A DNA stretch of 64,000 bases from a virus, in the IMG/VR virus record IMGVR_UViG_3300010885_054390, positions 1 to 64,000 of that record, one strand, 5' to 3'. The notes under the pieces were generated by a model. That model saw only the letters and a list, made by a program, of their open reading frames with translations, was not told the DNA's origin and searched no databases. The position numbers were made by a program, and so were the translations under genes. Positions 12,917 through 40,172 of the stretch are shown one piece after another (the stretch's first letter is position 1; the number at the start of each line of letters is the position of its first letter).

Positions 12917-12956
12917 CAAAAAGAAAAACTAGAGAGTACGCAAAGTAAAAAAATGA

Positions 12957-21280: not shown

Positions 21281-21290
21281 ATCCTTTAAA

Positions 21291-21305
21291 CACCCCTTTG
21301 GGGTG
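21291..21305 (+). terminator. Hairpin after tRNA-Tyr
   Basis: CACCCC-TTT-GGGGTG, a perfect 6-bp stem with a 3-nt loop, followed by GTCTTGT. The weak T-tract makes it a modest intrinsic terminator or tRNA 3'-processing signal ending the replication transcript. Confidence 0.5.
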
Positions 21306-21316
21306 GTCTTGTACCC

Positions 21317-21505
21317 CGGGGGTGGACTTAAATAGGCTTGGTTTTTGATTTGTAAGTCGTTGATGGCCAGAGCCGGGGTGGACTTAAATATACTTACTTA
21401 ACTTCAAAAAGAGTTTATTATAGTATGTATATGTGTTTTGCTCAGAGCCACGGCCCCTCCTGCCGGAAAGTCTTTGGGGGTACTTACTAAGTCCGAAGTC
21501 CACCC
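21317..21505. repeat. Repeat cluster GGGGTGGACTTAAATA
   Basis: Direct copies at 21317-21334 and 21373-21390 share GGGGTGGACTTAAATA. A 10-bp inverted partial copy (AAGTCCACCC) is at 21496-21505. TACTTACT also occurs twice (near 21391 and 21481). The cluster fills the 270-bp gap between tRNA-Tyr and the next gene, which has no recognisable ribosome site. It could be an operator array or a recombination footprint; no function is shown. Confidence 0.55.
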
Positions 21506-21550
21506 TAAGTTTTTCTTTGCATTTTGCAACGAAACCTGTACAACTTGCAA

Positions 21551-23697: not shown

Positions 23698-24258
23698 TTA
23701 ACTGCCTTCGGCAGGCTTAACCGACGTTTCGATTGCTATCGAATCCCGAATCTGATTCGGATTCGACTTCAAATTGGGATTCGAAGCGAGGAAAGCGACA
23801 TTGATAATCGGACGATTATCACCTTTAACTTGCTGTGCTTCAATACCATAGACTGACTTCGCCACACTATGAACCTTGTTCATAGCGTTAAAAGTAGTGT
23901 CGACCTCTGAAACTGATACCATTGAACTCTGTTCAATAGCAACGAGGCCTCGGTCAACCTGTTTCTGCACCCTTTCAAGGTATCGTTTCTGTAAATTAGT
24001 AACATTGTCTTCGACAATCGACTGCTGTATTGCAATGGCTCTATTGGCTGTTTGCTCTAGTATTGCATCTCTCTCCTCGAACCATTTACCTCTTGATACC
24101 CAAGAGTTAATGGTTCCCAACTTGAGACCATACTTCTCTGCCAACTGATTGTTAGTGAGTCTAGTGGTCATGTAAGCAATCTTGACCTGCTCTTTAACGT
24201 TCTTCCCAACTCTATAACGTTTCCCGTTATTAGAGTTGCTCTGCTCTGTTAAGCTCAT
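23698..24258 (-). CDS. terS: Terminase small subunit-like protein
   Basis: 186 aa from the ATG at 24258. An N-terminal helix-turn-helix (MTTRLTNNQLAEKYGLKLG, followed by INSWVSRGKWFEERD; about residues 28-58) matches the DNA-binding domain of phage small terminases that recognise the packaging start site. A helical oligomerisation-like middle follows (QQSIVEDNVTNLQKRYLERV) and a low-complexity tail. Small terminases are usually next to terL, but here the gene stands alone about 11 kb away on the minus strand, flanked by hairpin-rich DNA. A transcriptional regulator with the same HTH is the alternative. Confidence 0.65.
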   Translation of the reverse strand: MSLTEQSNSNNGKRYRVGKNVKEQVKIAYMTTRLTNNQLAEKYGLKLGTINSWVSRGKWFEERDAILEQTANRAIAIQQSIVEDNVTNLQKRYLERVQKQVDRGLVAIEQSSMVSVSEVDTTFNAMNKVHSVAKSVYGIEAQQVKGDNRPIINVAFLASNPNLKSNPNQIRDSIAIETSVKPAEGS

Positions 24259-24406: not shown

Positions 24407-24430
24407 ATATGACTATTCAGATAGTCATAT
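24407..24430. repeat. Inverted repeat ATATGACTAT/ATAGTCATAT
   Basis: Perfect 10-bp arms with a 4-nt loop (TCAG). AT-rich hairpin or protein-binding site, 46 bp from the 33-bp palindrome. Confidence 0.55.
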
Positions 24431-24461
24431 TTAAACGACTCTGAAAAGCGACGCCGTTTAC

Positions 24462-24484
24462 CCTTGGATCCTTTAGATCCAAGG
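24462..24484. repeat. Inverted repeat CCTTGGATC/GATCCAAGG
   Basis: Perfect 9-bp arms with a 5-nt loop (CTTTA). No T-tract follows on either strand, so terminator function is unlikely alone; a structural or binding site is more plausible. Confidence 0.5.
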
Positions 24485-24545
24485 ATAAACGAACAGAATC
24501 CTACAGAGAGGCGAACCTATGTCTGCACCAGCTTGCAAGCACCTA

Positions 24546-24599: not shown

Positions 24600-24630
24600 G
24601 TGTCACCGCCGTTTAACCGACCTCAACCTA
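24600..24630 (+). promoter_or_regulatory. 31-bp bipartite element, copy 1
   Basis: GTGTCACCG, 13 bases including GTTTAACC, then CTCAACCTA. A small CACC-TTC-GGTG hairpin abuts it upstream. It lies 66 bp before the 32-aa gene at 24697. Fixed 31-bp length is shared with copies 2-6. Probable phage-specific promoter. Confidence 0.6.
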
Positions 24631-24696
24631 TTTAGCGACATCGAAACTTGCCGTTGGCGAGATCGGCGTCGAACCCAAAAAAGGAAAATCAATAAC

Positions 24697-24795
24697 ATGA
24701 CAACATACGAACAAGCCTACACGGAACTCTGCGAACTCTTCGGAGTCGACAGCGACGAAACCCTTGCCATCAACCCCCCGTACCTAGTGGACTAG
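24697..24795 (+). CDS. Small protein, 32 aa
   Basis: Acidic peptide beginning MTTYEQAYTELCELFGVDSD, preceded by AAGGA about 12 bases upstream. First gene of the rightward accessory region, so possibly strongly expressed. No family recognised. Confidence 0.5.
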   Translation: MTTYEQAYTELCELFGVDSDETLAINPPYLVD

Positions 24796-24820
24796 TCCAC
24801 TACACAAGGAGACCACCACG

Positions 24821-25129
24821 ATGAACCTACCCACCTACAGCGAAGCCGTAGCCACGGAGATCAGCACGCTCCGTAAGCGTTTGGAAGTGCTCGAGCAAAC
24901 CCTTTGCCTCCCTCCGAGGAAAGCCAAAAGCTCCCTCCCAAGCTGGCTGAATGACAAAGACCTCCGCTCCCACGAACAGAGGAGAGCCGAGTCCGTTCAC
25001 TCTGCGACGAAGCTCCGCATAGAGTCTGCCTACGTTGCCATCCTCGAAGGACGCTCGGCGTCACTCAAGGATTGTGCAAGGGAGCATCGAGTGAGTCGCT
25101 CAACCCTAAAAACTGCCTTCAAAAGCTGA
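24821..25129 (+). CDS. Small coiled-coil/HTH protein
   Basis: 102 aa, good AAGGAG site. An N-terminal coiled coil (AVATEISTLRKRLEVLEQTL) is followed by a C-terminal helix-turn-helix of resolvase/Psq type (SLKDCAREHRVSRSTLKTAF, about residues 81-100). A DNA-binding regulator is plausible; targets unknown. Confidence 0.6.
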   Translation: MNLPTYSEAVATEISTLRKRLEVLEQTLCLPPRKAKSSLPSWLNDKDLRSHEQRRAESVHSATKLRIESAYVAILEGRSASLKDCAREHRVSRSTLKTAFKS

Positions 25130-25148
25130 ACCAAAGGAGAACATACAC

Positions 25149-25244
25149 ATGACACCCGAAGCCCTCGACATCCTAGACACCATCGTAAGAGTAGCGATAC
25201 CCGTAGTCGTAACTGGCCTATTCGTAGCCTGCTTCCACAGGTGA
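25149..25244 (+). CDS. Single-pass membrane peptide, 31 aa
   Basis: AAAGGAGA precedes the ATG. Sequence MTPEALDILDTIV leads into one hydrophobic helix (VAIPVVVTGLFVACF). Too small for a family call; a membrane-active or regulatory microprotein is possible. Confidence 0.5.
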   Translation: MTPEALDILDTIVRVAIPVVVTGLFVACFHR

Positions 25245-25278
25245 AGAAAAGCCCGAAGCCTTCGACCACCCCATAGGG

Positions 25279-25309
25279 GTGTCACCGAAAGTTTAAACGG
25301 CTCAACCTA
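25279..25309 (+). promoter_or_regulatory. 31-bp bipartite element, copy 2
   Basis: GTGTCACCGAAA, GTTTAAACGG, CTCAACCTA. Preceded directly by the hairpin CACCCC-ATA-GGGGTG. Only 6 bases separate it from the ATG at 25316, which has no ribosome site, implying a leaderless or very short leader. Confidence 0.65.
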
Positions 25310-25315
25310 ATTACC

Positions 25316-25483
25316 ATGAACAACGAAACCGCAACCATCCTCGACGAACTCGAGCAACGAGTCTCTGATATGTATGTCAGCGACTTGTCTACTGGCGAGA
25401 ACAAAGGTGCATCACCCTTGGACTACGTCCGCTGGGCAATCGAGGAGATCGAAGCAAACCACCAACCCATCCTGAAAGGATAA
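25316..25483 (+). CDS. Small acidic protein, 55 aa
   Basis: Begins MNNETATILDELEQRVSDMY; C-terminus DYVRWAIEEIEANHQPILKG is helical. Lies between element copy 2 and the SprT-like gene, 7 bp apart, so it is probably co-transcribed with the metallopeptidase. No family recognised. Confidence 0.6.
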   Translation: MNNETATILDELEQRVSDMYVSDLSTGENKGASPLDYVRWAIEEIEANHQPILKG

Positions 25484-25490
25484 AAAAACC

Positions 25491-26078
25491 ATGAACAAAA
25501 CCCGCGAACAATGGCTACAGAAGGCAGTCGAAGCACTCGACTCGAAGCTCTTCAAGCCTAAAAACCTCTCGCTACCCAAACGCATCCGAGTATCCGTCGG
25601 ATGGCCAGGGGGGCGTGCAGACAGGAGCAAAGCTGTCGGTCAACACTGGAAGCCAACTGCCTCCTCTGACAACCACCACGAAATCTTCATCTCTCCGAAG
25701 ATCGCCTCGAACGGACTGGAAGTCCTGTCCACCTTGGCACATGAGCTTGTCCATGCACAAGTCTTCGCCGAGTACCCCGACGAAGGCCACGGGAAGAACT
25801 TTCGCCGAGTGGCCAACGCCATCGGCCTCGAAGGCGACCCGAAGGTGTGTGGTGCAGGTGAAAAGCTCCGCAACGGCTTACTCAAGGACTTCATCCTTCT
25901 CGAAGGCGATTTCCCCTCGGGAAGCATCGACTTCTCACAGCGGAAGAAGGACAGCACTCGTCTCATCAAGGCAGAGTGTAAGGCTTGCGGATTCGTAATC
26001 CGTACGTCCCGCAAGTGGATTGAGGACATCGGCCTGCCCATCTGCAAGTGTGGCGGAGATTTCCACGAACCCAAATAA
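25491..26078 (+). CDS. SprT-like zinc metallopeptidase
   Basis: 195 aa. HELVH (about residues 83-87) is the HExxH catalytic zinc site, with a downstream GHGKNFRRVA helix (about 98-107) supplying the third ligand region. A C-terminal zinc ribbon has CKACG (about 163-167) and CKCGG (about 184-188). This is the SprT/Spartan architecture, a family linked to cleavage of DNA-protein crosslinks in eukaryotes. Phage substrates are unknown. It is followed by a CobS-like ATPase and VWA-like partner, suggesting a joint remodelling/proteolysis function. Confidence 0.85.
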   Translation: MNKTREQWLQKAVEALDSKLFKPKNLSLPKRIRVSVGWPGGRADRSKAVGQHWKPTASSDNHHEIFISPKIASNGLEVLSTLAHELVHAQVFAEYPDEGHGKNFRRVANAIGLEGDPKVCGAGEKLRNGLLKDFILLEGDFPSGSIDFSQRKKDSTRLIKAECKACGFVIRTSRKWIEDIGLPICKCGGDFHEPK

Positions 26079-26090
26079 CCACCCTAAAGG

Positions 26091-26121
26091 GTGTCACCGA
26101 AAGTTTAAACGACTCAACCTA
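26091..26121 (+). promoter_or_regulatory. 31-bp bipartite element, copy 3
   Basis: GTGTCACCGAAA, GTTTAAACGA, CTCAACCTA, directly preceded by CACCC-TAAA-GGGTG just after the SprT-like stop. It lies 29 bp before the ATPase ATG and would give that gene its own transcript. Confidence 0.65.
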
Positions 26122-26150
26122 ATTGGCCAACCGAAAGGAAAACAACGACC

Positions 26151-27239
26151 ATGAACCCATACAACCTCACACTCAACCAACTTCGCCAAGAATGTGCGAA
26201 GCGTGGCATCGGCTCCCCCAAATGGAGAGCCAACGCCATCGTCGACGAGCTCCGCTCTGCCCTGCAAACCGCAGATCGTGATACTGGCGACTACACACCC
26301 ACCCCAACCCCACAGGAGGACACACCATTGAAGACCGAAACCCCCACACCTACACCTAGCGGTGACGCATTGGCAAGCACACTGCTCCAAGCCCTGCTCC
26401 CTCACCTTCCACAGCAAGGCATCCAAGAGGCTCGAGTACGGCAAATCGTCGCCGAGATCATCGAAGCACGAAGCCCGAGGGAGGTTCGAGTTGAGCTCCC
26501 CTCTGGTGAGAAGGTTGACGTTGGAATTGTGCATCAATCGTTTAACCGCATCCTGCAAGCTGTCTCCGCAAACATCAGCGGTGGCATCCTGCTCGTCGGC
26601 GGTGCTGGTGCAGGGAAGACAACGACCTGCCACAAGGTGGCCGACGCCTTGAAGCTCCCCTTCCGCACCATCAGTGTGTGTAAGCAAACCACCCTCTCTC
26701 ACCTCGTCGGCTTTATCAACGTAAGCGGGGAGTATGTAAGCACACCCTTCCGTGAAGCCTACGAAAAAGGTGGAGTATTCCTCCTCGACGAGTTCGACGC
26801 TGGCAATGAGAACGTGGTGCTGGCTCTCAATTCAGCCCTTGCCAACGGCATCTGCGAGTTCCCCGACAAGCAGATCGAGCGACACAAGGACTTCCGTTGC
26901 CTTGCATCGGCCAACACCTACGGCACTGGTGCAACCCTGCAATTCGTCGGTAGGAATAAGCTCGACGGAGCAACCCTCGACCGCTTCGTGGTCATCGAGC
27001 ATGACTACGACTCGAAGCTCGAGATCGCCCTTTGCGGGAATGACAAGTGGGCAGAGCGTGTGGTGAGCATCCGCAAGTCCATCGACAAGCTGGGCATCCG
27101 CCACATCGTCAGCCCTCGGGCATCCATCAACGGAGCCAAGCTACTCGCCATCGGTTGGAAGCAGGCCGAGGTGGAGCAGGCGGTCATCTGGAAGGGCTTG
27201 GACAAGAGCGAGGTACAGCGAGTGCTGGCCACCCTCTAA
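26151..27239 (+). CDS. CobS/MoxR-type AAA+ ATPase with SAP-like N-terminus
   Basis: 362 aa. The N-terminal 40 residues (LTLNQLRQECAKRGIGSPKW) resemble a SAP/HeH DNA-binding helix pair. After a Pro/Thr linker, the AAA+ core has Walker A GGAGAGKTTT (about 150-159), Walker B GGVFLLDEFDAG (about 207-218), sensor 1 ASANTYGTG (about 252-260) and LDRFVV (about 276-281). CobS/MoxR ATPases normally act as chaperone motors with a VWA-domain partner; the next gene fills that role. Probably a protein-remodelling motor, possibly DNA-targeted through the SAP-like region. Confidence 0.85.
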   Translation: MNPYNLTLNQLRQECAKRGIGSPKWRANAIVDELRSALQTADRDTGDYTPTPTPQEDTPLKTETPTPTPSGDALASTLLQALLPHLPQQGIQEARVRQIVAEIIEARSPREVRVELPSGEKVDVGIVHQSFNRILQAVSANISGGILLVGGAGAGKTTTCHKVADALKLPFRTISVCKQTTLSHLVGFINVSGEYVSTPFREAYEKGGVFLLDEFDAGNENVVLALNSALANGICEFPDKQIERHKDFRCLASANTYGTGATLQFVGRNKLDGATLDRFVVIEHDYDSKLEIALCGNDKWAERVVSIRKSIDKLGIRHIVSPRASINGAKLLAIGWKQAEVEQAVIWKGLDKSEVQRVLATL

Positions 27240-27241
27240 AG

Positions 27242-27272
27242 AGGTCACCCATCCACAACCTACGTCAACCTA
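27242..27272 (+). promoter_or_regulatory. 31-bp bipartite element, copy 4 (divergent)
   Basis: AGGTCACCC, variable middle, GTCAACCTA; same 31-bp span but three core mismatches. Follows the hairpin CCTC-TAAA-GAGG. Lies 28 bp before the VWA-like gene and AAAGGAC ribosome site. Confidence 0.5.
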
Positions 27273-27300
27273 ACTGCCAACCGAAAGGACAAACCTACCC

Positions 27301-28194
27301 ATGACAACCAAACGTTCCAACGCCTCGGACTCCTCCAAGGCAACACAAGTATTCCCGCTAACCTTCGAGAAGTTCCTCGAGATTGCGGGAGACCCCGACC
27401 CCGACCACAACAGCCGTTACAAGTCTGCGAACCAACAGCCCACGTCCAAGACATGGGCAGACGGAGTCGACTACTTCGAGAGCGTAAGGCGTCTCAAGAT
27501 CGGCTGGCCAGAGGGCGTGAAGAAAGCCCGTGAGTTAAGCTCGAAGCTCTATTCACGTTTAAACGCCGAGTACAGCTTCCAACGTGACATCAAGTTCGAC
27601 ACGACTGGTGACTGGTTCGACATCGGACGAGTGCTTGAAGGTGAGCCCGATTGCTGGGGTTCCGAGATCGAGCTTGACGACGAGTTCTCCAATGACAAGC
27701 GTGGGAAGATCGTTCGAGTGGCAGTGAATGTCGGGGCGTCCTGCTCCTATAGCTCGGAGCAAATCCTCCAACGGGGAGTGTATGCCCTCGCCATCGTCGA
27801 CCTACTCGAACGACTGGGCAAGAGCGTCGAGCTCACGGCCTCATGCAAGGTGGAGAAGAACGGCAAAATCTGGGGCTGGGAATTGCCCTTGAAGCAAGCG
27901 GGAGAAGAGCTCTCCCTTGACCGAGTGGCACACATCCTCGGTAGCCCTGCTGGCTTTCGCCGAAGCTGGTTCCGAGTCATCGAGCACACTGACTACCCCG
28001 ATTGCGGAAGCGGTCTCGGATGCCCTACAGACTGGACGGAGAGCGAGCTCAAGCAACGTCAGGTGGACATCTACATCGGAGCGTTGTTCTCGGGGAACAC
28101 CCCTTGGCAGGGCAAGACGGACACGAAGTTCATCATCGAGCAACTGGCCAAGGCGGGCATCAAGTTAGAGCGTGAGGAGGATGCGAAGGCATAA
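27301..28194 (+). CDS. VWA-like partner of the CobS-type ATPase (DUF7192-like)
   Basis: 297 aa. The central segment VRVAVNVGASCSYSSEQI (about residues 139-156) followed by ALAIVDLLERLGKSVELTA (about 163-181) has the beta-alpha-beta layout of a von Willebrand A domain. The metal-site DxSxS is altered to NVGAS, so it may be a degenerate VWA fold. I associate it with phage DUF7192 proteins. MoxR/CobS ATPases work with VWA partners, so this protein probably recruits or presents substrates to the ATPase upstream. The family call is moderate; the pairing is the main support. Confidence 0.6.
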   Translation: MTTKRSNASDSSKATQVFPLTFEKFLEIAGDPDPDHNSRYKSANQQPTSKTWADGVDYFESVRRLKIGWPEGVKKARELSSKLYSRLNAEYSFQRDIKFDTTGDWFDIGRVLEGEPDCWGSEIELDDEFSNDKRGKIVRVAVNVGASCSYSSEQILQRGVYALAIVDLLERLGKSVELTASCKVEKNGKIWGWELPLKQAGEELSLDRVAHILGSPAGFRRSWFRVIEHTDYPDCGSGLGCPTDWTESELKQRQVDIYIGALFSGNTPWQGKTDTKFIIEQLAKAGIKLEREEDAKA

Positions 28195-28221
28195 CGGATT
28201 TGGGCAGTGGGTACTGGTGCT

Positions 28222-28242
28222 CGTGAGGTTCGAATCCTCACG
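28222..28242 (+). other. Isolated tRNA T-arm-like hairpin
   Basis: CGTGAGG-TTCGAAT-CCTCACG is a perfect 7-bp stem with a canonical TTCGAAT T-loop, followed by GGCATCGG. No complete tRNA can be folded upstream (only GATGC at 28180-28184 could pair with GCATC at 28243-28247). It may be a tRNA 3'-end relic, an old attachment site, or a processing signal in the 88-bp gap. Confidence 0.4.
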
Positions 28243-28282
28243 GCATCGGTTAAACGAAACACGAAACATAGGAGCACGAACA

Positions 28283-28552
28283 ATGAAAAGTTTTGCATCA
28301 TTCGAAAAACAATACAAGCCGACCAAGCGTACGCCGACAGCGGACGACCCTAGCGACGACATCCTCTTCGAAACCTACGGAGAGGACGAACAGCTAGTGC
28401 GGAGGACGAACCCGAAGCACGTTTGGACACTGCTCGACGGCGAGCACGAAACAATCATCTGTGCTGGTATGCACTTCTGCAACCGCATCAACTACCTCAT
28501 AACGGAGACCGCATGGGACGATAAAAACCTATGCTTCCGCTATGTCGACTAA
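28283..28552 (+). CDS. Hypothetical protein, 89 aa
   Basis: AGGAG precedes the ATG at 28283. Acidic N-terminus (TPTADDPSDDILFETYGEDE), then a beta-rich region HVWTLLDGEHETIICAGMHF resembling small phage proteins of unknown role. First of a tightly overlapping series of small genes. Confidence 0.6.
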   Translation: MKSFASFEKQYKPTKRTPTADDPSDDILFETYGEDEQLVRRTNPKHVWTLLDGEHETIICAGMHFCNRINYLITETAWDDKNLCFRYVD

Positions 28553-28565
28553 AGGAGAACGAACA

Positions 28566-28775
28566 ATGGACAAATCAATCTACTCACTTGCGGACATTCA
28601 AAACATCTGCGACACCCACGAGTGGTCAGCACTCGTAAACATAGGCGGGGGACAAATAGAGGTGAGCGTTTACGACGATAGCGATGGCTTCGGCGTATTC
28701 ACCCCCACTGAAATCGATGCGGAGACGTACACCTTTAGGTTGTATGACTGCCCATCAAAAGGAGAAAACAAATGA
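28566..28775 (+). CDS. Small protein, 69 aa, paralogue of the 30026 gene
   Basis: AAAGGAG precedes the ATG at 28566. ICDTHEWSALV near the N-terminus and DAETYTFRLYD near the C-terminus align with ICEEWGWSACE and TDGTYNFELKD of the protein at 30026, so the two are diverged paralogues. No known domain. Ends in an ATGA overlap with the next gene. Confidence 0.6.
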   Translation: MDKSIYSLADIQNICDTHEWSALVNIGGGQIEVSVYDDSDGFGVFTPTEIDAETYTFRLYDCPSKGENK

Positions 28776-28930
28776 CACGAGGCGACACACTGCGAAAGAT
28801 TAGAAAGTTGACGTCATTCAAATCCGACATCGGGTTTGCAAACCTTGGACACGGAGAGGCAATCAGCCTCATCGAATGCGTCAACAAACTGGCTACACAA
28901 GCCCTACAGAAAGGAAAAAAGAAAAAATGA
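28772..28930 (+). CDS. Small basic protein, 52 aa, Lys tail
   Basis: Begins MTRGDTLRKIRKLTSFKSD and ends KGKKKK. The tail is encoded by AAAGGAAAAAAGAAAAAATG, so the codons also supply the ribosome site for the next gene. No family recognised. Confidence 0.5.
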   Translation: MTRGDTLRKIRKLTSFKSDIGFANLGHGEAISLIECVNKLATQALQKGKKKK

Positions 28931-29319
28931 AACGAACCATTGAGATCGAAGACACCCTCGAGGAGCGGGTGGCGAATGCCATCGAAAGCGTACAAGACGA
29001 ACTCAAGTCCTACGTCGAACAGAATCCCGAGACTGAAGAGCTCCCATGTTTAAACAACGACTTGGACTACAGCGGTGCCATCCATGAGATCGTCGACGGA
29101 GCGGTGCCCATCTACACCTACGAGATCGAAACCACATGGTTCCTCCATGCAAGAGAGCTCGAGAGTGCCTACGAGAATGCGGGGCTCGGAGACAACCCCC
29201 GAGAGAACAACGGCATGAGTGCCATCTACTGCTACATCATGGAGCAAGTGCAGGAATGGTACCACAAACACGGCGAGGAATACTTCGAAAAGCTCCCGAA
29301 AGGAAAAAAGAAAAAATGA
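28927..29319 (+). CDS. Acidic protein, 130 aa, Lys tail
   Basis: Highly acidic helical protein (EIEDTLEERVANAIESVQDE) ending KGKKKK. The same 20-base tail/ribosome-site sequence as in the previous gene recurs at its end. No family recognised; acidic early phage proteins can mimic DNA, but nothing here proves that. Confidence 0.55.
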   Translation: MKRTIEIEDTLEERVANAIESVQDELKSYVEQNPETEELPCLNNDLDYSGAIHEIVDGAVPIYTYEIETTWFLHARELESAYENAGLGDNPRENNGMSAIYCYIMEQVQEWYHKHGEEYFEKLPKGKKKK

Positions 29320-29474
29320 AAGACGCAACCCAAATCATCGAGGAGATCGAGGCACGACTCCTTGAGTACACAAACCTCGGCATCGATCATGCGAACGACC
29401 AGAACGCAGTGAACGAGCTCGAGAGTGCCGTAAACGAACTCCAACACCTACTCGAATGGATAAAACAAAAATGA
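29316..29474 (+). CDS. Small coiled-coil protein, 52 aa
   Basis: ATGA overlap at both ends. Helical and acidic (MKDATQIIEEIEARLLEYTN; AVNELESAVNELQHLLEWIK). Probably forms a coiled-coil dimer. No family. Confidence 0.5.
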   Translation: MKDATQIIEEIEARLLEYTNLGIDHANDQNAVNELESAVNELQHLLEWIKQK

Positions 29475-29689
29475 ATACTATCACGAAATCTGTTCAAGCG
29501 TACATCGACCACCGCATCGGAGAAATTAACCGAGAGGTGGCCACGAAGCACGAAGAAGCGAAGCGTTCACAAGGTGAGCAACTCGGCTACATCCTCGGAT
29601 GGATAGGCGATTGCCAAGCGAGACGCAGTGAATTGCACGCCGTACAGAGCTTCCTCCGAAAACTAAACCCTAACCAAGAAAGCGTTTAA
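29471..29689 (+). CDS. Small helical protein, 72 aa
   Basis: Start chosen at the ATGA overlap (29471); an ATG 15 bases earlier is possible. Helical (YIDHRIGEINREVATKHEEA). Ends at a GTTTAACC site. No family recognised. Confidence 0.5.
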   Translation: MNTITKSVQAYIDHRIGEINREVATKHEEAKRSQGEQLGYILGWIGDCQARRSELHAVQSFLRKLNPNQESV

Positions 29690-29694
29690 CCACT

Positions 29695-30033
29695 ATGGCT
29701 AATGCTAAAACATACAAACTGATGGACGGAGAGAAACGGAATCAGGCGAACCCTGACACCTTCTCCATCCCCGAACTCAACGAACGAAACAACCTAGCCC
29801 TCGACGAGTGCTATGCGAAGCTCGGCTTCGTCATGCCACGGCGAAAAAATAGGGTATCCGCAGAAAGAATGTGGGTACGAGTGAAGACGAAAGATGCGAA
29901 GGGCACCTACACTGGTGAGCTTGCCAACGAGCCAGCCTTCGTACCAAATCTATTTTTCGGAACGCCCGTCCGCTTCAAGGCGAAGCACGTACTCGACATT
30001 CAGATGGTGAAAGAGGAGGACAGCGATGAATAA
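29695..30033 (+). CDS. DUF2314-like protein
   Basis: 112 aa. AERMWVRVKTKDAKGTYTGE, then LANEPAFVPNLFFGTPVRF, matches the DUF2314 pattern of E-x-MWV, Y/F-x-G-x-L-x-N-x-P, then G-x-x-V-x-F and a final hydrophobic D segment. The family is an SH3-like beta barrel of unknown function found in bacteria and phages. It overlaps the next gene by 8 bases. Confidence 0.65.
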   Translation: MANAKTYKLMDGEKRNQANPDTFSIPELNERNNLALDECYAKLGFVMPRRKNRVSAERMWVRVKTKDAKGTYTGELANEPAFVPNLFFGTPVRFKAKHVLDIQMVKEEDSDE

Positions 30034-30211
30034 GACCTACACTGACGAACAAGTAAACGCGATCTGCGAGGAGTGGGGATGGAGTGCCTGCGAATGCTCG
30101 AACGAATACGAGAACAGCATTCAAGTATGCACCCATCGTCACGACGACTACTTCGGCAGATTCAATAAAATCACTGACGGAACCTACAACTTCGAACTAA
30201 AGGACGTTTAA
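30026..30211 (+). CDS. Small protein, 61 aa, paralogue of the 28566 gene
   Basis: Shares the ICxxxxWSA N-terminal and TYNFEL/TYTFRL C-terminal signatures with the 69-aa protein 1.4 kb upstream. Preceded by AGGAGGA. Role unknown. Confidence 0.6.
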   Translation: MNKTYTDEQVNAICEEWGWSACECSNEYENSIQVCTHRHDDYFGRFNKITDGTYNFELKDV

Positions 30212-30213
30212 CC

Positions 30214-30399
30214 ATGAACAAACCAGTCAACAGATACCTCATCGACTTGGTAAAGTTTACCGAGCGACTTCGGGAACTGCGGGACAGCGATGCGAACCCT
30301 TGTAACGAGGAGAACGCAGAGGGCTTGTGCCCCTGCCACACCTTCGACCAAGCCATCGATCAACTCGAGAACGTGCAAAGCATTCTCAAAACTCTGTAA
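30214..30399 (+). CDS. Hypothetical protein, 61 aa
   Basis: Starts 3 bases after the previous stop, with AAAGGAC upstream. CNEENAEGLCPCH contains three Cys and one His in 13 residues, possibly metal binding. Helical otherwise. Confidence 0.5.
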   Translation: MNKPVNRYLIDLVKFTERLRELRDSDANPCNEENAEGLCPCHTFDQAIDQLENVQSILKTL

Positions 30400-30411
30400 A
30401 AAAAATCACCT

Positions 30412-30645
30412 ATGATGATATACACACAGGGAAACGCAAAGACTTCGGACGGAACACCAGCCTCCGTGCTTACTCGCCCCAAGCCACACGGCTTCGGCAT
30501 ACCACCCGAGCATTTGGCCAAGGCCGACCGCTATGTGGTGCTGGTAACAGACATCCGCGACCGCGAACCTCCGCATTCACTATGTGAGCTGTACGAGGCC
30601 GAAGCGTTTAAACCTTATTACTCGGAACGCATCGATCAACACTAA
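30412..30645 (+). CDS. Hypothetical protein, 77 aa
   Basis: Begins MMIYTQGNAKTSDGTPASVL; the central YVVLVTDIRDREPPHSLCEL is a beta-alpha unit. No family recognised and no clear ribosome site. Contains GTTTAAAC at 30606. Confidence 0.5.
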   Translation: MMIYTQGNAKTSDGTPASVLTRPKPHGFGIPPEHLAKADRYVVLVTDIRDREPPHSLCELYEAEAFKPYYSERIDQH

Positions 30646-30693
30646 CAACTTTTCGTGGGACAAGACGTTGCAAATCAACGCAAAACCCCCCGA

Positions 30694-30724
30694 ATGTCAC
30701 CGAAACTAAACACACCTCAACCTA
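30694..30724 (+). promoter_or_regulatory. 31-bp bipartite element, copy 5
   Basis: ATGTCACCGAAA, CTAAACACAC, CTCAACCTA; 10 bp before the ATG at 30735, with AAAGGAC in between. A CGTTG/CAACG hairpin (30666-30680) lies upstream. Confidence 0.65.
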
Positions 30725-30734
30725 AAGGACAACC

Positions 30735-31241
30735 ATGAGCAACAACGAAAAACCAAACAACGACGAAACAAACGAAGCACAGAGACAAGCACGCCTCGAG
30801 GAGATCGGGAAGTGCATCACCGACTTCGTGAACGATGACCGCACTCCCGCCATACTCAAGTGGGGCTTACAGATTCTCTTCATCGCTACGTCCGATGACG
30901 ACACGAAGAGCGGAGTAGTAGGCGGTTTGCTGGCCTGCGGGCACAGAGCCTTCGACAACGCAATCTCCAAATCGCGAGAGGAGGGCAACGAAGCCTTGGC
31001 CAAGAAGCTCGAGAAAGATAAGAACGACATGATTAAGCTCGCCCTTCAAGTCGACTTCCGTGGTGCGGTAACCTCCGTACTGCGAACGAAGCTGGGCGAG
31101 ATTGCAGACGATGGCGAGGAGGCCGAGGAGGCACCCTCCCCGAAGGTGATAGTAGTCGAGCAAAAGAAACCAGTATCGGAGGACAACGTACTGCTACCCA
31201 AGCAGAAGAAGGAACCAAATCCCTTTGCAGGGAGGAACTAA
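30735..31241 (+). CDS. Hypothetical helical protein, 168 aa
   Basis: Acidic N-terminus, helical core (DRTPAILKWGLQILFIATSD; GVVGGLLACGHRAFDNAISK) and a Pro/Lys-rich C-terminus. Driven by element copy 5 with a ribosome site. No family recognised. The longest gene of its subcluster, so probably the main product of this transcript. Confidence 0.6.
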   Translation: MSNNEKPNNDETNEAQRQARLEEIGKCITDFVNDDRTPAILKWGLQILFIATSDDDTKSGVVGGLLACGHRAFDNAISKSREEGNEALAKKLEKDKNDMIKLALQVDFRGAVTSVLRTKLGEIADDGEEAEEAPSPKVIVVEQKKPVSEDNVLLPKQKKEPNPFAGRN

Positions 31242-31242
31242 C

Positions 31243-31458
31243 ATGAGATTACAGACAAAAGAACAAATCCAAGACTGGCTCAAGAGCTACAAGAAGAACG
31301 ATTCATTTGCGATTCTCTTTTGGACAAAGGACGAGATAGAAGAAAACCTTGGACGTAAGATCAAGGAGACGGAGTGGAAAAGAGCGGTCAATGCCGTTGA
31401 CTCCGACAGCGAAGAGCAGGTGCTCGGGGAAAACATCGAAGAGCACTTGAGCGTCTAA
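31243..31458 (+). CDS. Hypothetical protein, 71 aa
   Basis: GGAGG 6-8 bases before the ATG, 1 bp after the previous stop. Sequence MRLQTKEQIQDWLKSYKKND is helical and charged; the C-terminus is acidic. No family recognised. Confidence 0.6.
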   Translation: MRLQTKEQIQDWLKSYKKNDSFAILFWTKDEIEENLGRKIKETEWKRAVNAVDSDSEEQVLGENIEEHLSV

Positions 31459-31462
31459 CGAG

Positions 31463-31552
31463 ATGACGAGTGGGCAGACATCATTTGCGATGGCTGAAAA
31501 GGTTGGTTGCGATGTAACCTCCGCAATCAATCGTTCCCTACTTGTCGTTTAA
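31463..31552 (+). CDS. Possible small ORF, 29 aa
   Basis: MTSGQTSFAMAEKVG onwards, ending at a GTTTAACC site. No ribosome site; it fills most of a 112-bp gap and may be chance. Confidence 0.25.
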   Translation: MTSGQTSFAMAEKVGCDVTSAINRSLLVV

Positions 31553-31570
31553 CCGAGAGGAAACACTAAC

Positions 31571-31747
31571 ATGAAGTACATTGTATTTGCCGAGAACACG
31601 ACCTACTACTCGATGGAGGTAGAGGCCAATAGTGCGGATGAAGCAAACAAGATTGCCGAGCAGAGCGACGGAGCCGACTGGACGGAAGACTCCACAGGCA
31701 AATGGATTGTAAGCGACGAGCTCACTTGTAGGAAACCAAACAACTAG
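31571..31747 (+). CDS. DpnD/PcfM-like small protein, 58 aa
   Basis: GAGAGGA upstream. MKYIVFAENTTYYSMEVEAN, then SADEANKIA, matches the beta-strand, V-x-A-x-S/A-x-D/E-E-A pattern of DpnD/PcfM-like and related small beta-alpha domains common on mobile elements. Function unknown. Confidence 0.55.
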   Translation: MKYIVFAENTTYYSMEVEANSADEANKIAEQSDGADWTEDSTGKWIVSDELTCRKPNN

Positions 31748-31760
31748 GAAAATAAAAACT

Positions 31761-31970
31761 ATGCAAATTATACGCAAATCACCAGTCAGTCTCAAAATCC
31801 AATCGATGCACCTCGACATCAGCGAGCTTCAATGGACTCGGTACCTGCGAGGAGATGGTTTGATTCAAGATATATTTCCAAACTTAACCGCCGATGAGCG
31901 GGAGTTTATTAAATCAGGCATAACCAACGAGGAGTGGAAAATCCTCTTTGAACCAACGGAGGAAAGTTAA
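31761..31970 (+). CDS. Conserved phage protein, 69 aa
   Basis: LQWTRYLRGDGLIQDIFPNL followed by ADEREFIKSGI resembles a recurring small phage protein with W-x-x-G-x-LIQDxFP and DEREFL-x-G motifs. No function is known to me. A start with little ribosome-site support (GGAAAATAAAAACT). Confidence 0.6.
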   Translation: MQIIRKSPVSLKIQSMHLDISELQWTRYLRGDGLIQDIFPNLTADEREFIKSGITNEEWKILFEPTEES

Positions 31971-31971
31971 A

Positions 31972-32172
31972 ATGATATTCGAACGTGGAGAATATAAAGG
32001 CAACCCAACACTAATCATCAAGCGAGACGAGCGGGACAGATTTCCCTTTAGTCTCGGACTACGGAAGGCGGAGATGCTCCTCCAAACAGAGGTGCAAAAC
32101 CAACTCGAGAAGTTTGTGCTTGAACACAAGGTTGACGATGGGCTTGAGAACAATGATGGCGAACACGCATGA
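31972..32172 (+). CDS. Hypothetical protein, 66 aa
   Basis: GGAGG lies 11 bases upstream of the ATG at 31972, one base after the previous stop. GNPTLIIKRDERDRFPFSLG then a helix (LRKAEMLLQTEVQNQLEKFV). Similar small proteins occur in mobile elements. No function assigned. Confidence 0.55.
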   Translation: MIFERGEYKGNPTLIIKRDERDRFPFSLGLRKAEMLLQTEVQNQLEKFVLEHKVDDGLENNDGEHA

Positions 32173-32390
32173 GTAGCCTCATAAACAAGCGGATGTTCAA
32201 GACGTACTTGCTTTCGCTATCGAAGGTAAATGCGGACAAACGCAACGAGGCTCGAAGGGAGATGGGGATACTTGCCAACCTAAAGCCCCACTCCCGAGTC
32301 TCAAAGGAAACCTACGACAACGCAACCGCCCATCTAATCAACTGGATGAAGGCACACATCATCGAAAAGAAAAAAGGAAAAACATTATGA
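32169..32390 (+). CDS. Small basic protein, 73 aa
   Basis: ATGA overlap at the start. Basic helical protein ending EKKKGKTL; the Lys codons carry AAAAGGAAAAA, a ribosome site for the next gene. No family recognised. Confidence 0.5.
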   Translation: MSSLINKRMFKTYLLSLSKVNADKRNEARREMGILANLKPHSRVSKETYDNATAHLINWMKAHIIEKKKGKTL

Positions 32391-32953
32391 ATAAAACACC
32401 TACAACCGAATCACGAAAGCACAAGGGCATATCACCCGACCAAAAGAAAGCCATCGAAACCTACGAAAAACTTTGTTCGGAGAAAGACAAGGGCGAACTC
32501 TCCTTCGAAACCTCCAACAAAGCAAGAGAGTTTCTATACAAGTACAACCAAGAATGCTTGTTTAAACACTTCCGCAAGATCAAGGCCAAGCAGGCCGAGA
32601 TAACCTTCGATGGCTCGGGAGACAGCGGGCAGATCGAAAGCTCCTCCATCGATGGGAAGCACTTCATCAAGAACTCCAAGAAAAGCGGGATTGTAGAGGG
32701 CTTTATTAGCCACACTTGCACCACCTTTCTTGAAGAAGGTGGACTGCAACACGGATGGAATACAAAGGTATGCCTTTACGAAGCCATCGAAGACTACTGC
32801 TACAACATCCTTGAGAGCGAACACGGAGGCTGGGAGATCAACGCAGGTTCCTTTGGAGAGTTTGTTCTCGACGCCCGAGGAGATGAACTTGTAACAAAGC
32901 TCACCATGAACGAACGCTACGAAGACGTAACAACTTCGGAGGAGACCTACTAA
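32387..32953 (+). CDS. DUF6878-like protein
   Basis: 188 aa. ITFDGSGDSGQIES (about residues 71-84), HGGWEINAGSFGEFVLD (about 148-164) and a terminal NERY match DUF6878, a family of unknown function often carried by phages and plasmids. The Asp/Glu-rich conserved positions suggest an enzyme or binding fold, but no activity is known to me. Coupled upstream and overlapping the next gene by one base. Confidence 0.65.
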   Translation: MNKTPTTESRKHKGISPDQKKAIETYEKLCSEKDKGELSFETSNKAREFLYKYNQECLFKHFRKIKAKQAEITFDGSGDSGQIESSSIDGKHFIKNSKKSGIVEGFISHTCTTFLEEGGLQHGWNTKVCLYEAIEDYCYNILESEHGGWEINAGSFGEFVLDARGDELVTKLTMNERYEDVTTSEETY

Positions 32954-33378
32954 TGGCCAATCCCTACCACCACGCAGTAAGCTCCGCAAAGAAGTGGGGC
33001 GGGAAGCCCGAGGACTACCAGAAAATCCACGACTGGTTTGACGAATCAAAGATGATGATGGCGGACTTCCGACATCGTGCCTTGCGTCACCACGCCGAGG
33101 GATGCTTCATGGCGGAACGAATCTTCGGGAACACCATCACCAACAGCGATGGACGGAAGGTTCCGACTCGGTGGGTAGCCGAGCAACACGTCAAGGAAGA
33201 CCTTGGGCGTATCCCTTCTATGCAAGACTGGTTTGTGCACATATCAGCCAAGCCTTGGATGGGGGCTACGCAGAAGCTGGACGCCGAAAAGATTGGCTCG
33301 GGCGTTCCGCATAGCTTAATCGGGCATACCTTTGTATGCCTACCACCAACAAAAAAAGGAAGAGGGAAAAGAAAATGA
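32953..33378 (+). CDS. DUF6915-like protein
   Basis: 141 aa. The sequence ANPYHHAVSSAKKWGG, IHDWFDESK, DFRHRALRHHAEG and EQHVKEDLGRIPSMQDW matches DUF6915. Repeated His residues (RHRALRHHAEG) could bind metal. Function unknown. Its Lys/Arg-rich tail overlaps the ribosome site for the next gene (GGAAGAGGG). Confidence 0.68.
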   Translation: MANPYHHAVSSAKKWGGKPEDYQKIHDWFDESKMMMADFRHRALRHHAEGCFMAERIFGNTITNSDGRKVPTRWVAEQHVKEDLGRIPSMQDWFVHISAKPWMGATQKLDAEKIGSGVPHSLIGHTFVCLPPTKKGRGKRK

Positions 33379-33833
33379 ACATCAAAACATTCTTAAATAA
33401 ACATCTATCGAAGAGACTCAAGGCCGAGTGCAACCGCTTGGGCGAACGTTACCGCAAGCTGGAAGCCAAGGACGAAGAAACGGGCTCTGACTCTTTCCAC
33501 GGCTCCGATGAGCCAAGCGAAATCAGAGATCGGATTATCAATATGATGGCTCCTTCGGTTAAACGCTACGCCAAAAACCTGTTCAACAATCCAGTCGACA
33601 AGGACGAAGATAGCTTTGAGTTCTTTGACTCCTTGGGCAATGACCAGCTAGAAGTCTTCTGCATCAGGCGTGGCAAAAAAGGATGGGTGGCAAGCGTTTC
33701 AACTAACTACTGGGACGCCCCCGCAGATACCTGCGACGACTCCACCTGCGTGCCTACACCAGCGGAAGCCTTCGAGTGGGGCTTTGGCGACGCAATGGCT
33801 TACCACTTCATCAACGAGAAAGTAGGAAGATAA
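33375..33833 (+). CDS. Hypothetical protein, 152 aa
   Basis: Basic coiled N-terminus (LKAECNRLGERYRKLEAKDE), then VPTPAEAFEWGFGDAMAYHF near the C-terminus with an acidic patch. ATGA-coupled to the previous gene. No family recognised. Confidence 0.55.
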   Translation: MNIKTFLNKHLSKRLKAECNRLGERYRKLEAKDEETGSDSFHGSDEPSEIRDRIINMMAPSVKRYAKNLFNNPVDKDEDSFEFFDSLGNDQLEVFCIRRGKKGWVASVSTNYWDAPADTCDDSTCVPTPAEAFEWGFGDAMAYHFINEKVGR

Positions 33834-33836
33834 TAT

Positions 33837-34094
33837 ATGAGCAAAACATTACTTGGCCGAGAGTTTAAAAACATCCCGACTGGCGACCTAGTCAAGCTAG
33901 TGCATGACAAGCATCAGGAGCTTAACAAGTACCCGAACAGCACCCGCATTCGAATGGAGTTTAACTTCTCAACGCAAGAGCTGTGGAAGCGAGGCTGGAA
34001 ACTCGAATACGTTACGACCCTTAAACTGCACCCGCCCCGCAAGGAACGCAGCGAAAGGTTTGTGACGTTTAAACAAAAGGAGGCCGTGGCATGA
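33837..34094 (+). CDS. Hypothetical protein, 85 aa
   Basis: MSKTLLGREFKNIPTGDLVK, mixed helical, basic C-terminus (HPPRKERSERFVTFKQKE). Contains GTTTAAAC at 34067. ATGA overlap with the next gene. Confidence 0.55.
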   Translation: MSKTLLGREFKNIPTGDLVKLVHDKHQELNKYPNSTRIRMEFNFSTQELWKRGWKLEYVTTLKLHPPRKERSERFVTFKQKEAVA

Positions 34095-34492
34095 ACAGCA
34101 AAGACTTCAACCTAAAGTTTCGAAAGGAAATCCAGACCCTCAACTTCGTATACCGAAGCACGTTCTTTGTTCACTGGTTCCTTCGCAGGTTCATCTTCGA
34201 AGGCGTCTTCGCGGGGAACGCTGACTTTAACGGCAACTCCGTAAGCGTAATCAGCGTGCCCGTTTTAAGGTTTTTCCTAGCCGACCTCGAGCGTCTTGTC
34301 ATAAACTTGCACGACGAGATAGCTCGCATGAACAACTCACTCCCAAAGAAAATGCGTATACCTTTGAAGCTCCCCATCTACGAGAGCTACGCCAAGCTCA
34401 AGGCAAAGTCCGAGGCGAAGGCACGGCGGAACTCCAAAGTTTTAGTATCGTTTAACCATGAGACCAGCGACGGAACAGGCATGAATGACTGA
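34091..34492 (+). CDS. Hypothetical protein, 133 aa
   Basis: Aromatic- and hydrophobic-rich (RSTFFVHWFLRRFIFEGVFA), then a basic helical tail. It might associate with membranes, but no clean transmembrane helix is seen. Coupled to both neighbours. Confidence 0.5.
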   Translation: MNSKDFNLKFRKEIQTLNFVYRSTFFVHWFLRRFIFEGVFAGNADFNGNSVSVISVPVLRFFLADLERLVINLHDEIARMNNSLPKKMRIPLKLPIYESYAKLKAKSEAKARRNSKVLVSFNHETSDGTGMND

Positions 34493-34754
34493 CCTCGAAC
34501 CTATCCCCTCGAGAAAGAGATGCCCCTCCTGCCAGCAGGAAACACTGGAAGGCGGAATAATAGACGACTACGTTGCCAACATCCGAGGCTTTGAGATCGT
34601 AATCCGAAACATAGAAAGAGACCGATGCTCTAACTGCGGGGAGCAGTGCTACGCTTGGAGCCAATGCCTCAAGATCGACCAAGCAATCAGAGACGCTAGG
34701 AAAGCGGGGGTACGGCACGACATCGGGCTGTACGACTTTCGTTTGGACGACTAA
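34485..34754 (+). CDS. MqsA/YgiT-type zinc-finger protein
   Basis: 89 aa. CPSCQ (about residues 13-17), DYVANIRGFEIVI (about 28-40) and CSNCGEQCY (about 47-55) give the paired CxxC zinc site and middle strand of YgiT/MqsA-type zinc fingers, which form the N-terminal half of some toxin-antitoxin antitoxins. The usual C-terminal HTH is missing; only a short helical tail follows. No toxin is obvious next door. It may be an anti-toxin decoy or a plain zinc-binding adaptor. Confidence 0.6.
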   Translation: MTDLEPIPSRKRCPSCQQETLEGGIIDDYVANIRGFEIVIRNIERDRCSNCGEQCYAWSQCLKIDQAIRDARKAGVRHDIGLYDFRLDD

Positions 34755-34798
34755 AAATAATCGTTGTCCTTTGCAGAATACGTGATAGTAATCGATTC

Positions 34799-34996
34799 AT
34801 GGCACAGCACAAACACTACGAAGTAAGGGTTCCTCGGAGCCACGTTGAAGTCCACAAGGTTGTGGCGGAAGACGAAGCACACGCCAAGCGTTGTGTGCTG
34901 AACGGCGAGTCGCAAGACGTAAACGTTGAGCTTGCCCCCTACAAGTCCGCCGACGAAACCAGCACCTCCGATTGGTCAGTATCCGAAGTATTGTGA
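34799..34996 (+). CDS. Small beta-alpha protein, 65 aa
   Basis: HYEVRVPRSHVEVHKVVAED then EAHAKRCVL resembles the beta-strand plus A-x-DEAxA helix arrangement of the 58-aa protein at 31571. No function assigned. GTGA overlap with the next gene. Confidence 0.5.
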   Translation: MAQHKHYEVRVPRSHVEVHKVVAEDEAHAKRCVLNGESQDVNVELAPYKSADETSTSDWSVSEVL

Positions 34997-35133
34997 AGCA
35001 ACTTCGTTTGGAGTTCTGCGAAAGCCTAAAGTGCTGGGTTGTTAAAAACGGCAAGTGGCGTTTTGGGCACAGAGTATTTAGAGATAAAGCCAAAGCCGAA
35101 AAGTTTCTCAAAGAAATTACCCTTAAAAAATAA
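34993..35133 (+). CDS. Small basic protein, 46 aa
   Basis: GTG start overlapping the previous stop. Sequence begins with QLRLEFCESLKCWVVKNGKW and has a basic helix (AKAEKFLKEITLKK). Typical DNA-associated microprotein composition; function unknown. Confidence 0.45.
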   Translation: MKQLRLEFCESLKCWVVKNGKWRFGHRVFRDKAKAEKFLKEITLKK

Positions 35134-35233
35134 CTCCGCTGCTGCGTTTAGACGCTGTTTCTTTGGCATCCCGAAACAAGTTTTGCTCAAAAATCAACCG
35201 CAAGTCTTTGTGTATCAATTTAAAACCCTCGAA

Positions 35234-35264
35234 ATGTCACCGAAACACGGGCGACCTCAACCTA
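35234..35264 (+). promoter_or_regulatory. 31-bp bipartite element, copy 6
   Basis: ATGTCACCGAAA, CACGGGCGAC, CTCAACCTA; 6 bases before the ATG at 35271, the same distance as copy 2, again with no ribosome site between. It ends a 137-bp gap. Confidence 0.65.
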
Positions 35265-35270: not shown

Positions 35271-35555
35271 ATGGCAACCGAAGGTAAACTAAAGTCCGCA
35301 AGGCTCGCCGAGACCACCCGCTCTATGGCCAAGCTAATTCAACTCGCCCTAGTTCGCCTTGGGGCTGACCCCAGTGCCCTTGTCGCAAGAAAGACTGACC
35401 TTCGAGGCTCGAAGGGCGGGCTCACCTTCGGCGAGCTCATGTACTGGTTAGCCTTTTCAATAAATGCCCTCGAGTTTAAATGCAAAAAGATTTTACCAGC
35501 AAACGAAGCCATACAAAGAATCCAGAGATGGAAGAAAGTGAAAACAATACTATGA
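35271..35555 (+). CDS. Hypothetical protein, 94 aa
   Basis: MATEGKLKSARLAETTRSMA onwards: basic, helical, with an amphipathic segment FGELMYWLAFSINALEFKCK. The start right after element copy 6 suggests a leaderless message. No family recognised. Confidence 0.55.
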   Translation: MATEGKLKSARLAETTRSMAKLIQLALVRLGADPSALVARKTDLRGSKGGLTFGELMYWLAFSINALEFKCKKILPANEAIQRIQRWKKVKTIL

Positions 35556-39078: not shown

Positions 39079-39398
39079 AGAAAGTATATATTTCGGGGCC
39101 GATGACTGGCCTACCAAACCTTAATTACCCAGCCTTCCACAAAAGAGCCACCGAACTTCGCGAGAAAGGCTTCTGGGTCGCCAATCCAGCAGAGCACTTC
39201 GACGGCCAACAAGACATCGACAGGAAGGTATGCCTTCGCACCGACCTGAAGGCCTTGCTTGATTGCGACTACGTAACCTTCTTAGATGGCTTTGAGACTA
39301 GCGCGGGAGCTCTCTTGGAAGCTTACGTAGCCAGAGAGTGTGGGGTTGGAGTCCTCGATAAATTTGGAGAAGTAGAGTCCATTTGTGAGCCCGTTTAA
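39063..39398 (+). CDS. DUF4406 nucleoside deoxyribosyltransferase-like protein
   Basis: 111 aa. VYISGPMTGLPNLNYPAFHK (about residues 8-27), NPAEHF and LDGFETSAGALLEAYVA match DUF4406, a small Rossmann-like family related to nucleoside 2-deoxyribosyltransferases. It may handle nucleoside or nucleotide substrates. Overlaps the methyltransferase by 16 bases and the next gene by 14. A GTG at 39075 is an alternative start. Confidence 0.72.
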   Translation: MHKKVKKVYISGPMTGLPNLNYPAFHKRATELREKGFWVANPAEHFDGQQDIDRKVCLRTDLKALLDCDYVTFLDGFETSAGALLEAYVARECGVGVLDKFGEVESICEPV

Positions 39399-40170
39399 AT
39401 ACACACCTCCACTCGGCATCCCAACTTGCCACAAGATATTCCCTCTCGGCATATACGAGAATCAAGTCTCTTGCCACGCCGAAACAAAGAGCGCCATCTT
39501 ACACAACTACGAGTCCGAAAAGTTTCCCGTTAAATGCTCTTCTCCCATGAAACTACCCGACGGAAGAATTGTGCAGGCCGACATAAGCAAGTTTACGGGA
39601 GAGGCTCACGGCTTGGCCACCTTCCACAAGAACCCCCAGTACAAAGTATTCTTTTCCGAGCTTGCCTGCCACGCAAACGCCTACCTTCGTATGCTTGGGG
39701 TTGATGAGCAGAAGACCGAAATTTATGTTATGAAGAGCTGGCTGGTTATTCACGATGACTACACCGACTCGATGCCCTTTCACGTTCACCCAGAATCAAA
39801 CATCTCCTTTGTTTATTACGCCCAAACGCTTCCCTGCTCGCAGGCGATTGTTTTCCGCAATGACTCTCATCAGAACGACATATCTCCTGATATTTTTTAC
39901 AGCGATGTAAACTCTTCTAACAGCCTTGTTACAGAAGAAACCTGTTTAAACAAAACGGAGTTCCCGCTCGGTGTTCGGGAGGGTATGCTCGTCATGTTCC
40001 CCGGTTGGAGAACGAACCACGGAACACGAATGACGAAGCCCGAGGCCTTCGACAAGGATACCTTTGTCCCGAGACTTGCGATTGCAGGCGATCTAAAGGT
40101 TGTGCTGAAGCCCGACAGGCTCGCCACCATGACCTTGTCCTCGTCTCTTGAGCATTGGGAGAAGTTGTGA
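39385..40170 (+). CDS. 2OG-Fe(II) oxygenase 1
   Basis: 261 aa, GTG start overlapping the DUF4406 gene. FHVHPESNISFVYYAQ (about residues 132-147) supplies the His ligand of the double-stranded beta-helix, and NHGTR (about 212-216) the second His plus the basic residue for 2-oxoglutarate. The arrangement fits the phage PF13759-like 2OG-Fe(II) oxygenase group. Substrate unknown; hydroxylation of a base, protein or metabolite is expected from the family. Confidence 0.72.
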   Translation: MSPFKYTPPLGIPTCHKIFPLGIYENQVSCHAETKSAILHNYESEKFPVKCSSPMKLPDGRIVQADISKFTGEAHGLATFHKNPQYKVFFSELACHANAYLRMLGVDEQKTEIYVMKSWLVIHDDYTDSMPFHVHPESNISFVYYAQTLPCSQAIVFRNDSHQNDISPDIFYSDVNSSNSLVTEETCLNKTEFPLGVREGMLVMFPGWRTNHGTRMTKPEAFDKDTFVPRLAIAGDLKVVLKPDRLATMTLSSSLEHWEKL

Positions 40171-40172
40171 GC

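Follow-up and report, generated by a model that had tools for sequence, protein, structure and literature searches.

Six copies of a 31-bp element made of two constant boxes and a variable spacer lie on the plus strand of an uncultured virus record, IMGVR_UViG_3300010885_054390 of IMG/VR, and we read them as probable phage-specific promoters of sigma70-family geometry. The window analysed here is bases 1–64000 of this 80,254-base record; the contig-wide scans include the remaining 16 kb. About 36 small plus-strand genes form a block that begins at 24.7 kb, and its first 11 kb contain the six elements.

Anatomy and placement of the element

The copies are located at 24600–24630 (copy 1, GTGTCACCGCCGTTTAACCGACCTCAACCTA), 25279–25309 (copy 2, GTGTCACCGAAAGTTTAAACGGCTCAACCTA), 26091–26121 (copy 3, GTGTCACCGAAAGTTTAAACGACTCAACCTA), 27242–27272 (copy 4, AGGTCACCCATCCACAACCTACGTCAACCTA), 30694–30724 (copy 5, ATGTCACCGAAACTAAACACACCTCAACCTA) and 35234–35264 (copy 6, ATGTCACCGAAACACGGGCGACCTCAACCTA), each exactly 31 bp long, in agreement with an earlier note on this DNA that had listed six copies at these positions. 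The pattern TGTCACCG-N13-CTCAACCTA is matched exactly by five of them, whereas copy 4 has diverged and carries three mismatches (AGGTCACCC...GTCAACCTA), a correction to the earlier note. When the spacing within the invariant core GTCACC-N15-TCAACCTA was left free between 5 and 40 nt, the 80-kb contig yielded six sites, all on the plus strand and all 29 bp long. With up to three mismatches to TGTCACCG-N13-CTCAACCTA, the six copies are the sole matches in the window against a shuffle expectation of 0.12, six sites were reached in none of 100 shuffles, and the remaining 16 kb holds no further site. A weight matrix built with one copy left out scores the omitted copy above all other sites of the 80 kb, for each copy in turn. 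The element was also the top motif of the contig when noncoding DNA was searched, without bias, for spaced pairs of 6-mers; five sites were counted, as copy 2 was covered by a crude open reading frame (ORF) call. The same search in 17 related contigs found no dispersed motif with at least four sites; the four-site motifs of G017 belong to a tandem array at one contig end. Chance, or a word common throughout host genomes, is an extremely unlikely source of six sites in view of these counts. The single matches found elsewhere, nine in 257 Gb of bacterial and archaeal genomes and 16 in a looser IMG/VR search, are at the chance level in the former and without relation to this virus in the latter.

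The placement of the copies is equally restricted. All six are wholly intergenic, compared to 6.7% of block placements that fall in gaps (chance of about 1e-7), and all are oriented with the genes. Of the nine block gaps that measure 31 nt or more, six contain the element, two contain RNA-like structures (28195–28282 and 31459–31570) and one, of 44 nt, is without either. The statement of the earlier note that the copies stand just before genes fits copy 1 only loosely, the distance to the ATG being 66 nt there.

Copies 2 and 3 agree almost completely over a stretch of about 43 bp, and copies 5 and 6 have upstream sequence in common. These likenesses would suit a recent duplication of intergenic cassettes, or recombination junctions, with no part in regulation. 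With the near-identical pair 2/3 left out of the computation, however, identity between copies is about 0.96 in the boxes, 0.36 in the spacer, and 0.32 and 0.35 in the 30-bp flanks upstream and downstream, so that the other pairs agree in spacer and flanks at close to background level, in contrast to boxes that hardly vary and a strict spacing. Constant boxes and a constant 29-bp core beside drifting spacers and flanks point to two contacts selected at a fixed helical phase, beyond mere duplication, and we regard duplication without function as very unlikely. Both boxes and the distance between them thus appear to be under selection. The box centres are about 21–22 bp apart, or two helical turns, which suits a single protein complex bound on one face of the DNA.

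Gene starts and the promoter interpretation

The distances from the element to the next ATG (24697, 25316, 26151, 27301, 30735 and 35271 for copies 1 to 6) are 66, 6, 29, 28, 10 and 6 nt, respectively. Copies 2 and 6, for which the earlier note had reported a gap of 6 nt without a ribosome site, do stand out among the 36 starts of the block: Shine-Dalgarno pairing is weakest at the copy 6 gene (-0.3 kcal/mol) and third weakest at the copy 2 gene (-1.7 kcal/mol), compared to -4 to -13 kcal/mol, with one exception, at the other 34. A few starts in this computation were off by one base, which does not affect the ranking. The leaders of copies 1, 3 and 4, where the element stands further from the ATG, contain an AAGGA-type site, and a modest Shine-Dalgarno sequence at copy 5 (AAAGGA) starts at the final base of box 2. 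If transcription started just past box 2, a ribosome site would have no space at copies 2 and 6; the observed pattern is the one expected from such a start.

As the earlier note had said, the element is not a sigma70 consensus promoter. The TTGACA-N17-TATAAT-like consensus is not matched, with the -10 position CAACCT retaining only A2 and T6, and between 23.0 and 38.7 kb the plus strand is free of sigma70 consensus sites. The alignment that scores best as sigma70-like in the gaps of copies 2–4 falls on the element, e.g. GTGTCA-N18-CAACCT, and most shuffled sequences score as high; it follows that no other sigma70 promoter is present in these gaps. The alternative sigma factor or redirected polymerase suggested previously is in keeping with a layout as expected of a promoter with non-standard specificity; promoter function itself, the transcription start, the recognising factor and the timing of expression are what we infer from this layout.

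In the mechanism proposed here, a polymerase with non-housekeeping specificity, directed by a host alternative sigma factor or consisting of host polymerase altered by an unrecognised phage protein, would contact box 1 (nTGTCACC) as a -35-like and box 2 (CAACCTA) as a -10-like element, on the same DNA face and about two turns apart. Transcription would begin about 6–7 nt past box 2 and would serve a series of short operons in the nonstructural block, extending from 24.6 kb to 36 kb and further. Copies 1, 3 and 4 would give transcripts with a leader that includes the Shine-Dalgarno site. At copies 2 and 6, sigma70 geometry (the -10 CAACCT ending at -7) and the 9-nt spacing of ECF41 promoters both place the start at the ATG or one base earlier, and the predicted transcript would be leaderless.

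Several observations weigh against a promoter function. Box 2 is C-rich for a -10 element and lacks the CGTC of extracytoplasmic function (ECF) promoters. The Shine-Dalgarno sequence of copy 5 would fall upstream of a start 6–7 nt past box 2. Furthermore, the element is present in none of the relatives tested, and neither a sigma region 2 nor a known polymerase was found in the contig, as described in the last section.

Known systems and competing interpretations

Among known promoters the closest likeness is to those of ECF41 sigma factors, TGTCACA-N16-CGTC (PMC3426412), for which the Sinorhizobium meliloti motif lies 9 nt upstream of the transcription start (PMC3616915). Box 1 (TGTCACC) shares six of seven bases with the ECF41 -35 box in five of the six copies, copy 4 reading GGTCACC; the 16 nt between TGTCACC and CAAC in all copies equal the ECF41 spacer (16 +/- 1 bp); and the asymmetric two-box layout and a start predicted some 9 nt beyond the -10 are also alike. 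In contrast, the -10 of the element is CAACCTA, with CAAC in all copies, instead of CGTC or TGTT, no ECF sigma gene (PF04542) was found in the contig, and the element occurs as six copies in a phage block whereas ECF41 sites adjoin a sigma/COE operon. Because of the mismatched -10, the element is not assigned to ECF41. Promoters of phage-encoded sigma factors in phages 7-11 and phiEco32, found by comparing intergenic regions (PMC4331800), are likewise few, well-conserved copies in phage gaps, unlike the sigma70 consensus. Those phages, however, have a recognisable sigma factor and a single block of about 12 bp, in place of the two boxes and missing sigma gene of the present case. Repeats of similar length (29 and 58 bp) are known between genes of halovirus HF2, where nine of nine cloned ones were promoter-active (PMC8707807); HF2 is an archaeal virus with AT-rich promoter motifs, and its sequence and machinery are unrelated to the element.

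Two further promoter types were considered and set aside. By eye, copy 5 (CCTCAACCTAAAGG) resembles a T3 promoter, a likeness that was dropped: the other copies lack the G start expected of a T7/T3-like promoter, and no T7-like polymerase was found. Hairpin promoters of the N4 type, read by a virion RNA polymerase within the 3,795-aa protein of this virus, were rejected since this protein matched only polyvalent-protein families (LPD38) and has neither a PDB relative nor polymerase motifs, and since copies 5 and 6 have no hairpin. The giant protein is encoded at 42201–53588 on the minus strand. Over its last 900 aa it shares about 28–32% identity with giant proteins of Escherichia, Burkholderia and Vibrio phages, and a relative (G001) has an ORF of 4,390 aa in a comparable place.

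The earlier note had placed a short hairpin ahead of each of the first four copies, and this is solid for two of them. At copy 2 the hairpin CACCCC-ATA-GGGGTG (25267–25281, plus strand, 6 bp) overlaps the first bases of box 1 with its 3' arm, with a local fold z of -2.3, and at copy 3 the 5-bp hairpin CACCC-TAAA-GGGTG (26080–26093, plus strand) enters box 1 in the same way. The hairpins are just 4 bp long at copy 1, where a weak one lies directly 5' of the element, and at copy 4 (CCTC-TAAA-GAGG, 27233–27244, plus strand), where the stop codon of an AAA ATPase gene falls within it. Copies 5 and 6 have no hairpin ahead of them, and we therefore place the hairpins outside the core element. Standard terminators are ruled out by the absence of U-tracts on the plus strand; the hairpins may help to end or shield upstream transcripts.

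These hairpins could also be taken to mark an mRNA signal, either start-associated or of an antitermination type (nut-like or SAS-like), bound by a ribosome partner or a phage RNA-binding protein. Within the nonstructural arm the element lies beside start codons, which would agree with such a role and is also seen for the SAS/ESAS elements of cluster K mycobacteriophages, 13-bp sequences with AGGAG typically 3–7 nt before the start (PMC3203893). Both elements are asymmetric, mostly on the same strand, upstream of starts, confined to the nonstructural arm and missing from the host as well as from most other phages. The present element, in contrast, has two boxes without AGGAG or a Shine-Dalgarno sequence, and lies at anything from 6 to 66 nt from the ATG. 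Box 1 does not base-pair with box 2, five of the six copies fold no better than shuffles, and two have no hairpin. Searches for a riboswitch, another cis-acting RNA or a nut-like site gave no Rfam match, no fold conserved across the copies and no complement of box 2 nearby. An RNA-level role is accordingly rather improbable.

A protein-binding role on DNA other than a promoter has somewhat more in its favour and is still unlikely. A phage DNA-binding protein, as a dimer or a pair of dimers, could occupy both boxes and activate, repress or stop transcription that comes from elsewhere. The boxes resemble direct repeats, with TCA(A)CC in common 20 bp apart, a candidate binder with a helix-turn-helix-like fold is encoded in the first element-led operon, and stoperators, mentioned in PMC4351075, are a known case of asymmetric repeats oriented with transcription. 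With copies 2 and 6, however, the ATG follows after just 6 nt and no sigma70-like promoter is seen upstream, which makes a separate promoter hard to place, and an operator would leave the missing ribosome sites at these copies unexplained.

Possible readers, relatives and gene context

If the copies act as promoters, their reader has to be sought among host and phage proteins. In agreement with the earlier note, no sigma or phage RNA polymerase gene was recognised. The six-frame translations of the contig and of seven relatives contain no sigma70 region 2 (PF04542), with positive search controls, and the matches to sigma region 4 are below threshold, falling in this contig within a terminase-small-subunit-like frame (ORF 23698–24258) that weakly resembles DUF1804. 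None of the contig ORFs matches an RNA polymerase family of Pfam or PHROGs or has a DxDxD-type active-site motif; a search with RNA_pol PF00940 gave no match, with controls that were likewise silent. We give equal weight to a phage polymerase and to a host alternative sigma factor or a phage regulator that escaped recognition. It is doubtful, yet conceivable, that a phage-encoded specificity factor of an undescribed family, without a recognisable sigma or polymerase domain, serves as the reader and gives the phage its own, partly leaderless expression class. The sole candidate regulator noticed inside the block is a 102-aa protein encoded by the second gene after copy 1 (24821–25129, plus strand). 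Its modelled structure has a C-terminal helix-turn-helix-like fold, with a pLDDT of about 90 over residues 60–100 and weak fold matches; we offer it as a lead rather than as a finding. Genes may be lacking from the contig, which is perhaps incomplete.

The terminase gene (11121–13130, minus strand) led first to L011, then to G001 and, through a three-sequence alignment, to 60 related IMG/VR loci (L011, L012, L035–L092), the newly found relatives being about 36–44% identical in the terminase. No match to this terminase family was found among 50,697 isolate phage records, and the family apparently marks an uncultured phage group. Both the element and the AAA gene are in none of 36 related records searched, where scattered matches with three mismatches are single. 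The one close relative (L011) is a 4-kb fragment, 86–88% identical, that ends short of the element region. Relative G001 (61 kb) keeps the replication module and has neither the element nor the octamer GTTTAAAC described below. It carries three gap copies (75–91, 1098–1113 and 3838–3854, as L015) of a palindrome of the type CGTGATAC...GTATCACG, likely an operator. Scans with one protein at a time, namely the AAA ATPase, PolA and a 397-aa structural protein, found no relatives, and a phage DNA collection gave no meaningful match. Outside this contig the exact element is absent from IMG/VR, and it is known from one virus only.

The window encodes a terminase, DNA polymerase A, a helicase and an exonuclease, with structural genes on the minus strand at both ends. 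On the plus strand, the genes immediately 3' of copies 3 and 4 encode an AAA_5 ATPase (26151–27239; PF07728, 1.4e-14) and a DUF7192 protein (27301–28194; PF23822, 5e-25), and those immediately 3' of copies 5 and 6 encode proteins of unknown function of 168 aa (30735–31241) and 94 aa (35271–35555). The second gene 3' of copy 2 encodes a SprT-like metalloprotease (25491–26078; PF10263, 6.8e-10). An adjacent pair of 2OG-Fe(II) oxygenase-like genes (39385–40727, plus strand) is preceded by a methyltransferase gene.

The gap at 31459–31570 (112 nt) has a stable three-way-junction-like RNA fold (-39.3 kcal/mol, z = -4.1) without an Rfam match. In the other structured gap, a minihelix at 28205–28247 resembles a tRNA acceptor/T-arm, with the T-arm GTGAGGTTCGAATCCTCAC and a weak mascRNA match (E = 0.44); it may be a 3' piece of a tRNA, for example an attachment site, and no integrase was recognised in the contig. 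Upstream of the block, the divergent gap at 24416–24492 contains two strong hairpins, TGACTATTCAGATAGTCA and an 18-pair stem around GGATCC. The gap at 21290–21520 has, after a tRNA-Tyr, the hairpin ACACCCCTTTGGGGTG, near-complementary to the copy 2 hairpin, as well as two copies of GGGGTGGACTTAAATA and an inverted AAGTCCACCC. The commonest 8-mer of the contig is GTTTAAAC, a highly iterated palindrome with 34 copies in 80 kb compared to 1.5–2.7 expected. It occurs in coding and noncoding DNA (e.g. at 25291, 26103, 27557, 29048, 30606, 32560, 34067, 38642 ... 57616 and L001), with two copies inside the spacers of copies 2 and 3 of the element and none from 2,105 to 25,290, the packaging and replication arm. 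Counts of it in seven genomes were uninformative for host identification.

Elements of this kind are already known, and the sequence of this one is new. If the six sites are promoters, they would define an expression class in a poorly described group of environmental phages in which neither a sigma factor nor an RNA polymerase was recognised, and would pose the question of whether the phage borrows a host alternative sigma factor, as hinted by the ECF41-like -35 box, or uses a factor of its own. They would also make an exact prediction, namely two leaderless phage mRNAs that start at the ATGs at 25316 and 35271.

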